This document shows, piece after piece, positions 32,800-41,354 of a stretch of DNA of 44,595 bases (positions are counted from its first letter, which is position 1; each line of letters begins with the position of its first letter). The notes beneath the pieces were generated by a model, which saw nothing but the letters and a program-made list of their open reading frames with translations, ran no database searches and was not told the origin of the DNA. The position numbers and the translations under genes are program-made. The stretch is from Candidatus Bathyarchaeota archaeon. Its GTDB lineage: Archaea; Thermoproteota; Bathyarchaeia; Bathyarchaeales; Bathycorpusculaceae. The stretch is taken from positions 39,273-83,867 of the forward strand of contig PLNS01000011.1 of the NCBI GenBank assembly GCA_003141855.1. The letters run 5' to 3'.

Positions 32800-33849
<1,050 letters not shown>

Positions 33850-36066
33850 TTAAGTAGATGTGAAGCGATCGAACGTTGTTAGGGCGCTCATGGAGCCGCA
33901 TGAGGGACACTTATGCAGGGTTCCAAACCAGTTTTTCTTGCAGTTATCACAAAAACTAATTAAGCGGTTGTAGGTGAAAAATTCTAAAGACTGGTTCTCC
34001 ATCAAACGCAGAGTCAAATCCATCAGCGCTTCAGGTTTGTATTCGGCGCCTTCCAACTCGATGATGGTTAGGTTTCCGCCAGCATTCAACCCTTTGAGTT
34101 TCTGCGCTGTCTCCAGCATTTCAGTGGGTATGCTGAGAAGCTCAGCAGCTTTTACTTGGAACCGTTTAGCGGTTGAATAATACGGTTTTTCTCTTGTTCC
34201 CGAAAACTTCACCTTTGCAACGCCGTATCTTTCAACGTCCAGCTGCGCTAGCCGCTCAGATGCTTCAGCGCTGCCAAGTATTACTGGGTAGAGTCGTTTG
34301 CCGTATTTTCTGCCGATTTTCTGTTTGAAAGCCAAAAGGTTCCCGATGGTTTCTTCTGCGAATTTGCGGCACTCTTCCGAGTTGATGCTTTTCTCGGTGA
34401 AGGCTTCGATGGCTTCGCGGAACCCTGCCAAATTGATTATTCGTGAGCAGTTTTCCAGTCGGAAGTAGGTGTCGCGGTCGGCTTTTTGCAAAAGAAACGG
34501 CAAAGAATTTTTCCCCAACTGCTTGAGCGCATTATTCTTTATCCCTAACGCTCGGGCAGCAATTTCAAAACGTTCCTTTATCAGGTCGAAGAACTTGTTT
34601 TTGTCCTTCTCACACTCAAGGGCAATCCTGGGTACATTAATCGTTACGCAACCCAGACAACCCGTCCGCAACGTGTCGGTTTCCCAGTCGCCCGTTAAAT
34701 CAGCTGCGAATTTTACGCCTGAAGAGGAAAAAGCCACGTTTTCATTCTCCTTCTTGGTCATGTTAGCGAAATATGGAATCCCGCTTTTCGCCGCTAACTG
34801 ATGCGCTTTGAGCAAAACAGCCTTCGCGTTTTCGTCAGCCAAAGCACTGCTGTTGATTTTTATGACTAGTTTGGGACTTAAAAGCGGCTTGCTGGTGCTT
34901 TCTTCTGCGAAAACATCGATGATAAGGGAGGCTACTAGTTGGCTTTCTTGGGTGAAGTCGCCGTATTTGCCTTTTGTTTTGCCCTGCGGGCCGACGGCTT
35001 CTTTTTCCGCGGTTAATTTAGGAATTGAAAGCTCAAGCCCCAACGTAGCTTCTGCGTGCTGGTTGAGGTTTTGAATAAACAACCGCAGGTTTTCCTTTAT
35101 TTTGGCTACTTCGTTGCCTCTAACATAGGGCGCAAGGAAAACGTTGAAGTAGTTGAATGTTTGAGTGCGGTTGGTTTCTTTGCTGGTGTGCAAGAGAACG
35201 TTAAAGGCGATGGATAATGCGGATTTAAGGTCGCTCGGGGCATCCATGGCGACTTGGAGGGGGTTGTCGAGTTTGACGCCGTGTTGGAAGAAATATCGCA
35301 GGTCGTGGATTACTTCGTTGGGTTTTAGTATCCATGTGCCTAAGCCGTCGATGTGGATGGCTCCTGAAAGGTGCGCGTCGGCGATGTCTCGGGGGAAAAT
35401 GTTTAGCAGCGTGTACTCGCCCAGAACGGTTTGCCCTGCTTTGCTGATGGTGGCTTCCGAGTCTTGAGCGGCGTCTTTTGATTCGATTAGGGCGGTTACT
35501 TCGTGGATTGGCATGCCGACTCGAGTGAGTTTATTGCGGTAATCCTCATAGCCCTTCTCAACAAGAATCCCGTTCACGACTTCCCTGATTAACGAGGCAG
35601 TAAGGTACTTTGTCTTCGACTTAACCAAGCGTTTCTCGGCTTCTTTCGCTGCCTTCTGCGCCAGTTCCGCTGGAACCTTCGCCTCTTTAATGAGCGAATT
35701 CGCGATTTTGTTAGCATCAAACTCTTCCACAGTTAAATGCGACGTGCGAACAAGCATACCTCTTGGTTTAACCGCCTTTTTCTCCACGCGGTCAGCCACA
35801 TCAAGAACCATCTTGCCAAGGTCGGTGAGGTAATATTTTTTTGCCTCAACATCCGCCTCAACCAAATCCGCCTTCAAAAGAAATTTTAGGTGGTAAGCGA
35901 ATCTGCCTGCGTCTCGGCTCGGATTCATTTTCAGCTGGTTCATGAGTTCGGTGTAGGAGAGGGCGCTTTTGTCGAAGAGCAGGTTTAGGATTTGCAGCCT
36001 GAGGGGTGACGAAACGGCTTTAAGCACCTTGACGCCGCGTGCACGATGCGGAGGCTGATTAACCAT
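33850..36066 (-). CDS. HTH-ATP-cone-NrdD-like protein; anaerobic ribonucleotide reductase homologue lacking the usual glycyl-radical motif
   Basis: The 738-residue protein has three parts. Residues about 10-95 form an ArsR-type winged helix (VLKAVSSPLRLQILNLLFDK, RFAYHLKFLLKADLVEADVE). Residues about 100-195 form an ATP-cone (GMLVRTSHLTVEEFDANKIA, LTRVGMPIHEVTAL). The remainder matches the class III ribonucleotide reductase barrel (FPRDIADAHLSGAIHIDGLG, CLGCVTINVPRIALE). A zinc site follows (SFCDNCKKNW, HKCPSCGS). In NrdD the C-terminus then has an Arg-Val-x-Gly-Tyr glycyl-radical motif; here the protein ends ALTTFDRFTST, with Ser where Gly is expected. It may be inactive as a reductase and act as a nucleotide-sensing regulator. 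No nrdG gene is nearby. Confidence 0.85.
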   Translation of the reverse strand: MVNQPPHRARGVKVLKAVSSPLRLQILNLLFDKSALSYTELMNQLKMNPSRDAGRFAYHLKFLLKADLVEADVEAKKYYLTDLGKMVLDVADRVEKKAVKPRGMLVRTSHLTVEEFDANKIANSLIKEAKVPAELAQKAAKEAEKRLVKSKTKYLTASLIREVVNGILVEKGYEDYRNKLTRVGMPIHEVTALIESKDAAQDSEATISKAGQTVLGEYTLLNIFPRDIADAHLSGAIHIDGLGTWILKPNEVIHDLRYFFQHGVKLDNPLQVAMDAPSDLKSALSIAFNVLLHTSKETNRTQTFNYFNVFLAPYVRGNEVAKIKENLRLFIQNLNQHAEATLGLELSIPKLTAEKEAVGPQGKTKGKYGDFTQESQLVASLIIDVFAEESTSKPLLSPKLVIKINSSALADENAKAVLLKAHQLAAKSGIPYFANMTKKENENVAFSSSGVKFAADLTGDWETDTLRTGCLGCVTINVPRIALECEKDKNKFFDLIKERFEIAARALGIKNNALKQLGKNSLPFLLQKADRDTYFRLENCSRIINLAGFREAIEAFTEKSINSEECRKFAEETIGNLLAFKQKIGRKYGKRLYPVILGSAEASERLAQLDVERYGVAKVKFSGTREKPYYSTAKRFQVKAAELLSIPTEMLETAQKLKGLNAGGNLTIIELEGAEYKPEALMDLTLRLMENQSLEFFTYNRLISFCDNCKKNWFGTLHKCPSCGSMSALTTFDRFTST

Positions 36067-36193
36067 GAAACCTTTCGCCCCTAACTCCCAAACTTGGTGG
36101 TGCTCTACCTATTATCCAATGGAGAGTTTAAACTTAACTAAGGCTATATGTAGAGAAACTCAAAAACTGCCAAGGGGCATGTTGGCTTGCTGT

Positions 36194-37243
36194 TTAGGAA
36201 GGGCAGGGTTGCTGCTGAGAAATGCAGTGAATCGTACCAAACCCATAAACCAAATCCACGCACCGAATACCCACGACTTTTCTGGATGGGAAGAGCTCCT
36301 GCAGAATCGACAGCGCCTTCGCGTCGTTTTTGTGGTCGAAGACTGGCACAAGCACTTTTTGGTTGCCTATGTAAAAGTTAGCGTAACTCGCGGGTAGTTG
36401 TTGCCCTTCGTCGCTCACGACATGCGGCATGGGTAACTTTACAATGTTGAGTTTTTTGCCGTTTTGGTCGACGGATTGGCCAAGGATTTGGTAGTTTTCG
36501 TTTAGAACATTGTATTCGGGGTCGTTTTTGTCTTCTTGGTAGGCACAAACAATCGTTGTTGGGTTCACGAACCGTGCTAAATCGTCGATGTGACCATCAG
36601 TGTCGTCTCCGAGGATGCCTCTCTTTAGCCAGATGAAATGGGTGACGCCCAAGTAGTCGGATAGGTATTTTTCGATCTGTTTTTTATCGAGATGCGGATT
36701 TCGGTTTCTGTTCAGCAAGCACTGTTCCGTCGTGAGTAGGGTTCCTTCACCGTTAACGTCTACCGAGCCGCCCTCAAGCACAATGTCTGGCTTGAAACAT
36801 TTCAGCGCCATTTTTTGGTTGATGAAGTCGGGAACTTGCTTGTCTTTTAGGAGTTCTTCGTATTTTTCGCCCCACGAGTTAAAGTTCCAATGCAGCATCG
36901 CCAACTCGTGGTTTTGGTTCTTGACAAAAATGGGTCCATAATCCCTAAACCAAACGTCCGCGTAACCGAAAACGTAAAAGTTTACCCGCCTTAGGTCAAT
37001 GTTTGCTACTTTGAAGAGTGCGGTGGCTTTTTGTTTTGTTGGTTCGTCTTTTACGAAGAGGTTTACTTGTTCGCCCTCATGAATCTCCTTAACAATCTGC
37101 ACATAAGTGTCTTCGACCCGCTCGACCCTGTTTGGGAAAGTTGTCGGGTCATAGGGCCAAGCTATCCAGATAGCGTCGTGTTTTTGCCATTCCGCGGGCA
37201 TGCTGTAGCCCAATTCGCGGCAAGTCTTGGCTTGGTTATTCAT
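36194..37243 (-). CDS. aguA: agmatine deiminase (agmatine iminohydrolase)
   Basis: Cytosolic enzyme that converts agmatine to N-carbamoylputrescine and ammonia. The 349-residue protein has the family blocks MPAEWQKHDAIWIAWPYDP, DVWFRDYGPIFV, DIVLEGGSVDVNGEGTLLTT, ILGDDTDGHIDDLARFV and the catalytic Cys near the C-terminus in YGFGTIHCISQQQP. I start at ATG 37243, preceded by GAGGTG at 6 bases; the ATG overlaps the TAA of the upstream amidase gene by 8 bases. The next enzyme of the pathway is the product of that upstream gene, so the pair makes putrescine from agmatine. Confidence 0.94.
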   Translation of the reverse strand: MNNQAKTCRELGYSMPAEWQKHDAIWIAWPYDPTTFPNRVERVEDTYVQIVKEIHEGEQVNLFVKDEPTKQKATALFKVANIDLRRVNFYVFGYADVWFRDYGPIFVKNQNHELAMLHWNFNSWGEKYEELLKDKQVPDFINQKMALKCFKPDIVLEGGSVDVNGEGTLLTTEQCLLNRNRNPHLDKKQIEKYLSDYLGVTHFIWLKRGILGDDTDGHIDDLARFVNPTTIVCAYQEDKNDPEYNVLNENYQILGQSVDQNGKKLNIVKLPMPHVVSDEGQQLPASYANFYIGNQKVLVPVFDHKNDAKALSILQELFPSRKVVGIRCVDLVYGFGTIHCISQQQPCPS

Positions 37244-38147
37244 CGCTGGCACCTCTTTTGTTGTCTTTTACGAGCGGATTGTAGGTGTCGGGGCGACGAT
37301 TCCGCAGAAAACCCCAGCCTTCCTGGATTTTCTTGTTCTTGCTTAGGTCAATTTGGGCGACTACGACTTCCTCTTTTGTGGTGCTCGCTTCCTTGAGTAC
37401 TTTGCCGAAAGAATCACAGACAAATGAGCCTCCCCAAAACTCCAGCTCGCCTTCCTCGCCGACGCGGTTAACTGCGGCAACATGGATGCCGTTTGCTATG
37501 GCGTGGCCGCGTTGAACGGTTTTCCAAGCGTCATGCCAGTCGCCGTCCTCTGAATTGTAGCCTTTAACGTAGCCGATTGCGGTGGGGTAGAATATGATTT
37601 CTGCTCCTTTTAGCGCGTTGATTCGGGCGGGTTCGGGGAACCATTGGTCGTAACAGATTAGCACGCCGACACGGGCAAACGCGGTATCGTAAACTTGGTA
37701 GTTTGAGTCGCCTGCCACGAAATAGTCTTTCTCGTAGAAGTAGGGGTCGTAGGGTATGTGGGCTTTACGGTAAGTGCCCATGATTTCGCCGTTTGAATTG
37801 ATTACTACGGCTGAATTGTAAAATTTGCCCTTCTGGCTTTTCTCAAACAAGGGCGCAATGATGACTATCTTGTGCTTTTTCGCGAGCTCAGAAAACAGTT
37901 TTGTGGATTCTCCAGGGATGGTTTCAGCTAAGGCTTTAACGTCGAGGTTTTTTTCTTGCGGAAAATACCTTGTGCGGTAAAGCTCTTGAAGACAGATGAT
38001 TTGGGCGCCCATTTCTGCGGCTTGCGCAATCTTTTCTGCGGTTTTTTTCATGTTTTGCGCTATGTTCTCTGAAACGGCGGTTTGGATAAGCCCAATTGTG
38101 ACTGTTTTATCGCCTTTTTTCTTTGGTGAAGAACCGTCTGAATGCAA
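37236..38147 (-). CDS. aguB: N-carbamoylputrescine amidase (nitrilase family)
   Basis: Cytosolic enzyme that hydrolyses N-carbamoylputrescine to putrescine, CO2 and ammonia. The 303-residue protein carries the Glu-Lys-Cys triad of the nitrilase fold: Glu in IICLQELYRTRYF, Lys in GTYRKAHIPYDPYF and Cys in GVLICYDQWFPEPAR. The segment RTRYFPQ and AHIPYDPYFYEKDYF match the AguB group. The start TTG at 38147 is the best available; the first 15 residues (HSDGSSPKKKGDK) are probably disordered. It is the first gene of a two-gene operon with agmatine deiminase, whose start overlaps its stop. Confidence 0.93.
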   Translation of the reverse strand: MHSDGSSPKKKGDKTVTIGLIQTAVSENIAQNMKKTAEKIAQAAEMGAQIICLQELYRTRYFPQEKNLDVKALAETIPGESTKLFSELAKKHKIVIIAPLFEKSQKGKFYNSAVVINSNGEIMGTYRKAHIPYDPYFYEKDYFVAGDSNYQVYDTAFARVGVLICYDQWFPEPARINALKGAEIIFYPTAIGYVKGYNSEDGDWHDAWKTVQRGHAIANGIHVAAVNRVGEEGELEFWGGSFVCDSFGKVLKEASTTKEEVVVAQIDLSKNKKIQEGWGFLRNRRPDTYNPLVKDNKRGASDE

Positions 38148-39940: not shown

Positions 39941-39983
39941 AGACAATGCAGTGACAATAGTTAGTTTACTGGGGCCAAACAAA

Positions 39984-41354
39984 ATGAAACTATTCATAGT
40001 TCAATTTCCCTTCGGCGTAGCAGCCTTCGACGAAAACAACGGCTTAGTAGAAAAAGCGCTGTTTCCAAAAAACGCGCAGGATGCAGCAAAAAGCCTGCTT
40101 AAAACCGAGTCTGGAAAAATATCCGACCAAGTCTCATCACTAATCACACTTCTAGCAAGCGTAGGTTATGACACGTTTGCGTTTGAAACCGCCAACTTGG
40201 CAGAAGAAGCCCAAAAGAAGATGAAAATCACCGTCGAAGTAGCCAAGCCAGCGGAAGTCGCAGTGCTGCATTCACGCATGGGTGAGGTAGCAATCGAATC
40301 AGGATTTGCCAAAGACGAACAAGAACTAAACATATGGAACCGCAATGTCAGCTTGGAACTTGCTAAGTTAAGGATTAAGGGTGCCTCCGAAAAGCGGGAT
40401 TTAATCGTCGCTCAAGGCATTCAAACGCTCGATAGTTTAGACCAAACCGTCAACCTCTTCATGGGCAGACTCAGAGAATGGTATGGCGTTTACTTCCCTG
40501 AACTTGACCGCTTAATCGAGAAGCATGAAACTTACTCGCGGCTCGTTATGAACTTGGGCAACAGGGAAAGCTTCACCGTTGATAATTTGGAGAAAGAAAA
40601 CATTCCAAAAGAACGAACCCAACTTGTTGCAAAAGCAGCCGAATCATCCATGGGCGCAGACATTGCAGAATCCGACTTGGAGATGGTACAAGCCTTAGCC
40701 AAGGACGTTCTCGGCTTCTATTTGTTGCGCAAGAACATGGAAGATTATGTTGACCACACCATGGAGGAATTGGCGCCTAACGTACGCGCGGTTGCAGGTG
40801 CACTTCTTGGGGCACGCTTAATAGCTATGGCAGGTAGCCTACGGAACTTGGCAATGAGGCCAGCAAGCACCATACAAATCATAGGTGCAGAAAAAGCCCT
40901 CTTCCGCTCCCTAAAAACAGGAGCCCGACCGCCAAAACACGGCTTAATCTTCCAACACACCCTGCTCCATGATGCAAAAAGGTGGCAGAGAGGAAAAATC
41001 GCAAGAGTCATCGCAGGTAAACTCGCCATCGCCGCCCGAGCAGACGCTTTCGGAGGAGGCCACTACATCGGAGACAGATTAAAAGCTGACATTAACAGGC
41101 GCTTAGAAGAAATTCATGTAAAGTACAAGGAGCCGCCCGCGCCAAAGGAAGCTAAACCAAGACCAGCAGGAGCAGGATTCGAACGCCGAGAACAACGACC
41201 CGAACAGCGACCCCCTCAAGGCGGATTCAGGGGTGGCGGTCAAGGTGGATTTAGGGACCGCGACCGAGGTAGAAGACCACGCCACGGTGGAGGCGGAGGT
41301 TATGGTGGCGGCGGTCAAAATCGGGGACCAGACAGACGTGCACCTCAAAGTTAA
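39984..41354 (+). CDS. nop5: Nop5/Nop56-like C/D box snoRNP core protein with RGG-rich tail
   Basis: Scaffold of box C/D sRNPs, which bridges L7Ae-bound sRNA and fibrillarin during 2'-O-methylation of rRNA. The 456-residue protein has the N-terminal fibrillarin-binding domain (residues 1-110), a coiled coil (about 115-250) and the Nop domain with PASTIQIIGAEKALFRSLKT and PPKHGLIFQ (about 285-330). The last 60 residues are rich in Arg, Gly and Pro (RPPQGGFRGGGQGGFRDRDR, HGGGGGYGGGG), like the GAR domain of eukaryotic fibrillarin; most archaeal Nop5 proteins end in a Lys/Glu-rich tail instead. The 3' end overlaps the fibrillarin gene by 17 bases. Confidence 0.94.
   Translation: MKLFIVQFPFGVAAFDENNGLVEKALFPKNAQDAAKSLLKTESGKISDQVSSLITLLASVGYDTFAFETANLAEEAQKKMKITVEVAKPAEVAVLHSRMGEVAIESGFAKDEQELNIWNRNVSLELAKLRIKGASEKRDLIVAQGIQTLDSLDQTVNLFMGRLREWYGVYFPELDRLIEKHETYSRLVMNLGNRESFTVDNLEKENIPKERTQLVAKAAESSMGADIAESDLEMVQALAKDVLGFYLLRKNMEDYVDHTMEELAPNVRAVAGALLGARLIAMAGSLRNLAMRPASTIQIIGAEKALFRSLKTGARPPKHGLIFQHTLLHDAKRWQRGKIARVIAGKLAIAARADAFGGGHYIGDRLKADINRRLEEIHVKYKEPPAPKEAKPRPAGAGFERREQRPEQRPPQGGFRGGGQGGFRDRDRGRRPRHGGGGGYGGGGQNRGPDRRAPQS

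Follow-up and report, generated by a model that had tools for sequence, protein, structure and literature searches.

The window, by which we mean the whole analysed stretch of 44,595 nucleotides, carries at 33850-36066 on the minus strand a single intact open reading frame with an ATG start, encoding a protein of 738 residues. A preliminary sequence-only reading had described this gene as a fusion of a winged helix, an ATP-cone and an NrdD-like barrel, that is, the barrel of a class III ribonucleotide reductase (RNR), and the reading frame and the Pfam search bear this out. The winged helix is of the ArsR type (residues 14-92; 35791-36027, minus strand) and was assigned from Pfam (DUF7347 at 14-89 and the ArsR-type HTH_5 at 20-70), from conservation and from a weak Foldseek match to HlyU. 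It is followed on the same strand by an ATP-cone (residues 104-182; 35521-35757; PF03477 at 105-176, over the cut-off), in which the usual lid V-x-K-R-D-G is replaced by VRTS, and by the barrel (residues 205-700; 33967-35454; Pfam NRDD at 205-734, E 5e-68). The C-terminal zinc site that had been noticed consists of C706, C709, C720 and C723 (33889-33966, minus strand), and the C-terminus is CPSCGSMSALTTFDRFTST, with DRFTST as the last residues.

The AlphaFold model (pLDDT 85, pTM 0.75) preserves the NrdD fold. In the Foldseek comparison with the PDB, class III RNRs took all the top places, and the ArsR-type regulator HlyU and NrdR matched weakly at lower ranks. The protein therefore has the barrel fold and the zinc site of NrdD. 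Its score against the NCBI NrdD equivalog TIGR02487 is 256 bits, below the curated cut-off of 326, and against the metalloregulator ArsR subfamily NF033788 it is 32.9 bits, below the cut-off of 55 bits. The Pfam search of the 738-residue protein found no zinc ribbon of the NrdR type (PF22811); a winged helix is present there. Downstream lies the convergent pyrB (aspartate carbamoyltransferase; 32884-33849, plus strand), a neighbour kept in f1, the family of the window. Upstream, at 36194-38147 on the minus strand, two genes resemble in translation an agmatine deiminase and a nitrilase of the N-carbamoylputrescine amidohydrolase type, a pair for putrescine synthesis. Farther on, the translation of 39951-41354 on the plus strand resembles Nop5/Nop56 and has a tail rich in Gly and Arg.

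To follow the catalytic residues, an alignment was made of 128 members of the window gene's protein family, E. coli NrdD and eight true NrdDs from archaea. All nine true NrdDs have Cys175, Cys384 and Gly681 (E. coli numbering), whose counterparts in P. copri NrdD are Cys171, Cys416 and Gly711 (PMC11226230). In the window protein, E251 (codon 35314-35316) stands at the position of the beta-strand catalytic cysteine C175, V451 (34714-34716) at that of the thiyl-radical cysteine C384 and Ser737 (33856-33858), one residue before the protein end, at that of the radical glycine G681, all on the minus strand. The serine had been noticed in the sequence-only reading, from which a loss of radical chemistry was proposed; both points stand at the level of sequence, and the loss extends beyond the glycine to both catalytic cysteines. 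Across the 128 homologues the beta-strand cysteine is never present (the commonest residue there is Glu, 89/128), the thiyl-radical cysteine is present in 25 and absent from 103, and the radical glycine is present in five and absent from 123. Cys384 and Gly681 occur together in one member, and all three residues in none. The zinc cysteines are each retained in 123-125 of the 128. In L048 and some others the full C-terminal tail is in register and has Ala at the radical position; accordingly, the loss of the glycine is more than mere truncation. One f16 member (L046:4045-6330, minus strand) has lost both catalytic cysteines but still carries Gly in place of the radical residue (KAFGRY). Based on these residues, with two cysteines plus the glycine gone, we consider the loss of radical chemistry to be established from the alignment. 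Between the window gene and its closest relatives dN/dS is 0.03-0.06, indicating strong selection on the protein.

A complete NrdD accompanied by NrdG was found in the same genome, on a separate contig, with nrdR in front of nrdD and nrdG behind it. No match to a class I or class II RNR barrel was found in this genome. The cell has no need of the window protein as an RNR.

The distribution was examined in 300 Thermoproteota genomes at a threshold of E <= 1e-20. Matches to the window protein occurred in 200 of them, and proteins with the same three-part layout in about 145, as counted by eye from the listed rows; the remaining matches are apparently true NrdDs. Nearly all of the 80 best matches listed in the contig scan were labelled Bathyarchaeota, and the named relatives are Bathyarchaeota MAGs. 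In the tree, which is unrooted, true NrdDs and the three-part family are split by a well-supported branch (100/99), consistent with a single origin of the family. From their class II RNR and gene content, we infer that the families f15 and f47 are ammonia-oxidising archaea.

The three domains are not conserved equally. Between the homologues of the ammonia oxidisers and the window protein, mean identity is 56% in the cone and 37% in the winged helix, versus 17% in the barrel, which means that the conserved part is the sensor together with the DNA-binding head. The winged helix contains a near-invariant stretch, DAG[RK]FAYHL, and Arg107, Arg161, Arg177 and Arg182 of the cone are invariant in 128/128 members. 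Considering that the lid has changed from K-R-D-G to T-S-x-x, canonical binding of ATP and dATP by the cone is not certain. Catalytically complete NrdDs encoded beside members of the family (L110:8434-10536 and L131:8344-10449) have cones with the same VRTS lid, pointing to one ligand for both or to descent of these cones from one ancestor.

Gene order supports a link to RNR genes. Of the 44 ammonia-oxidising archaea that could be tested, 43 have the gene directly upstream of the class II gene nrdJ on the same strand, the partner containing ATP-cone, RNR all-alpha and RNR barrel domains. There are two exceptions: one genome has the gene at the end of a contig, so that its order could not be assessed, and another has nrdJ at a different place. 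Most ammonia-oxidiser genomes have no match to a true NrdD and retain the gene. In the Bathyarchaeia families f4, f5 and f6, the gene is directly upstream of the class III gene nrdD, often with a glutaredoxin-like nrdH in between. It also directly precedes nrdD in other named MAGs (L104, L108, L110, L111, L113, L119 and L131), and in the tree the nrdD partners fall in different subtypes. In f1 and several other families, the gene is convergent with pyrB, and pyrI often lies beyond pyrB. These two arrangements meet in L104 and L108, where the gene, at times an nrdH, and nrdD are followed by a convergent pyrB, and in L051, where the gene and nrdJ are followed by a convergent pyrB. Accordingly, an RNR gene fills a slot between the family member and pyrB in some lineages, and the slot is empty in others. 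Genes for an HflX-type GTPase, an HTH_3 protein and a NAC-like protein are among the neighbours in f16, f21, f25, f37 and f50; at L038, L039, L041, L046 and L050 these form a conserved cluster beside the gene, with no RNR gene near. The linkage to RNR genes is thus frequent but not universal.

Upstream of the gene, conserved elements were compared with those of neighbouring genes. For the unit formed with nrdJ, the best upstream 22-bp element scored 24.2 bits across 16 genomes of ammonia oxidisers, and the best elements upstream of two neighbouring genes in these genomes scored 17.3 and 17.9 bits. The conserved sequence at this promoter reads GTCAnAARTCTTAwTTA. Sites matching the 17-bp core of this element without mismatch occurred only upstream of the family gene in the 12 genomes scanned; such uniqueness is expected by chance for a 17-mer, and the telling point is its conservation across genera. 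In Bathyarchaeia, the palindromic element AGTTTAAACT (36125-36134 in the window, no strand assigned) reached 19.6 bits, versus 21.2 bits for the element upstream of pyrB at these loci. A genome-wide count showed no enrichment of the palindrome, with four sites versus six for a reversed-pattern control, and a more rigid pattern had one match, which was unrelated. Considering that the pyrB element is equally conserved and the palindrome unenriched, AGTTTAAACT is unsupported as a dedicated operator. The simplest reading of AGTTTAAACT is the TATA region of a core promoter, and both upstream elements look like TATA-region sequences. The evidence for an operator is suggestive in the ammonia oxidisers and absent in Bathyarchaeia.

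The fusion of three domains, the loss of catalytic residues with the barrel fold kept, the purifying selection, the operon-like linkage to two RNR classes and the better-conserved upstream element of the ammonia oxidisers lead us to propose, with a probability of about 0.72, that a class III RNR paralogue, now dead, was converted into a transcription regulator that senses nucleotides and acts on RNR genes. In this case, the N-terminal winged helix would bind the promoter DNA of an RNR operon, in many cases the one to which the gene itself belongs (with nrdJ, or with nrdH and nrdD). The ATP-cone would read ATP versus dATP and thereby alter how the protein oligomerises or how its winged helices are arranged; the dead barrel would hold the dimer together and might sense nucleotides as well. 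As for the direction of regulation, we infer that repression at high dATP is most likely. A nucleotide-responsive regulator of RNR genes had already been suggested in the sequence-only reading; the gene order upstream of nrdJ and of nrdD speaks for it. No RNR gene adjoins the gene in the genome that contains the window. Members of f1 have pyrB rather than nrdD as their neighbour, and nrdD there is preceded by a true nrdR; several other lineages have translation-related or pyrBI neighbours and no RNR genes. The target of the protein in f1 is accordingly uncertain, and other nucleotide genes may be controlled there. A wider form of the proposal can be put forward only tentatively. In that form, a regulator made from an RNR would operate throughout Thermoproteota, its cone and its barrel pockets (for specificity and for substrate) might sense both the balance and the total of dNTPs and control whichever RNR class is present, and it would predate the split between Bathyarchaeia and ammonia oxidisers.

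On the one hand, the same operon-like linkage might be expected of a regulatory subunit without catalytic activity that attaches to the RNR enzyme itself, as a heterodimer or through cone-cone contact, and controls how active it is, the winged helix being a module for protein interaction only. The preserved NrdD fold and zinc site would suit such a subunit, and the ATP-cones of RNRs work via oligomerisation (PMC11226230). On the other hand, the partner is class II NrdJ in some lineages and quite different NrdD types in others, for which a common surface is not expected. Considering that the partner class varies and the family member remains constant, a regulator is to be expected rather than a subunit. 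Moreover, the winged helix with its near-invariant motif is more conserved than the barrel, and the linkage to RNR genes is absent from many genomes. We therefore consider a regulatory subunit unlikely.

Slightly less probable still is a nucleotide sensor that regulates pyrimidine synthesis through pyrBI, the genes for aspartate carbamoyltransferase, rather than RNR. The convergent pyrB, often with pyrI, is found in nearly all of f1, in several other Bathyarchaeia families and in f32, which would favour this idea. However, convergent neighbours do not have a promoter in common, and the orders in L104, L108 and L051 show the RNR gene as the co-oriented partner and pyrB as a bystander. Among the ammonia-oxidiser loci read with flanks, pyrB was nearby in L051 only.

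We give almost no weight to a functionless, decaying duplicate of nrdD: the catalytic residues are gone and some lineages are truncated at the C-terminus, but a winged helix has been gained, the operon position is conserved, dN/dS is low and no internal stop codons occur in the matches listed, which cover dozens of families. A sequencing error or frameshift concealing a normal glycyl-radical tail, which had to be considered while a single window was the sole sequence at hand, is just as improbable, because f1 relatives from other, independent assemblies share the short tail type FDRFxxT, both catalytic cysteines have been lost as well, and the last base of pyrB directly adjoins the stop codon of the gene (33849/33850), so that a hidden tail would not fit; together with the low dN/dS, this indicates that the early stop is genuine.

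Regarding the regulator reading, the family combines features of several known systems. With NrdD it shares the ATP-cone, the barrel fold and the C-terminal four-Cys zinc site; unlike NrdD, the window protein is without both catalytic cysteines and the radical glycine, has an extra N-terminal winged helix and has no nrdG beside its gene. The N-terminal domain resembles winged-helix regulators of the ArsR/SmtB type and those with DUF7347, although the window protein falls under the metalloregulator subfamily cut-off. We know of no other ArsR-type protein with an ATP-cone and an RNR barrel, and no description of a helix-turn-helix/ATP-cone/NrdD protein was found in the open-licence papers searched. 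A paper on ammonia oxidisers observed high relative RNR abundance under H2O2 and reported no regulator. The family thus offers a concrete candidate for a regulator of dNTP synthesis genes in ammonia-oxidising archaea and Bathyarchaeia, both of which are abundant. If the proposal is true, the family would clearly exemplify an enzyme that has come to control the transcription of its still active counterpart. The family is also a source of misannotation, as Pfam labels its members anaerobic ribonucleotide reductase even when the host is an aerobic ammonia oxidiser.

The closest functional parallel would be NrdR, the bacterial RNR repressor composed of a zinc ribbon and an ATP-cone, whose form loaded with ATP and dATP binds DNA boxes upstream of RNR genes. 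In both cases, an ATP-cone is joined to a DNA-binding domain, and both are associated in genomes with RNR operons of different classes (across the family, not in the window genome); control of RNR transcription by sensing ATP and dATP is proposed for the family. The family differs in having an ArsR-type winged helix where NrdR has a zinc ribbon, in carrying a near-full-length dead NrdD barrel and in the lid motif of its cone. The resemblance is one of logic, not of descent or parts, in agreement with the earlier suggestion of an NrdR-like protein of separate origin. NrdR is rare in archaea (PMC9110341). Among our 300 genomes, it exceeded the Pfam cut-off only in f1, in 23 of 23 genomes there, whereas the three-part family is present in lineages without it; this restriction suggests that NrdR was acquired later. 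In both f1 loci that were read (G000 and L102), nrdR precedes nrdD. In the Bathyarchaeia nrdR-nrdD-nrdG cluster (L001/L033, G000 contig 18), apparent NrdR-box-like inverted repeats, TAGTGT...ACACTA, lie upstream of nrdR.
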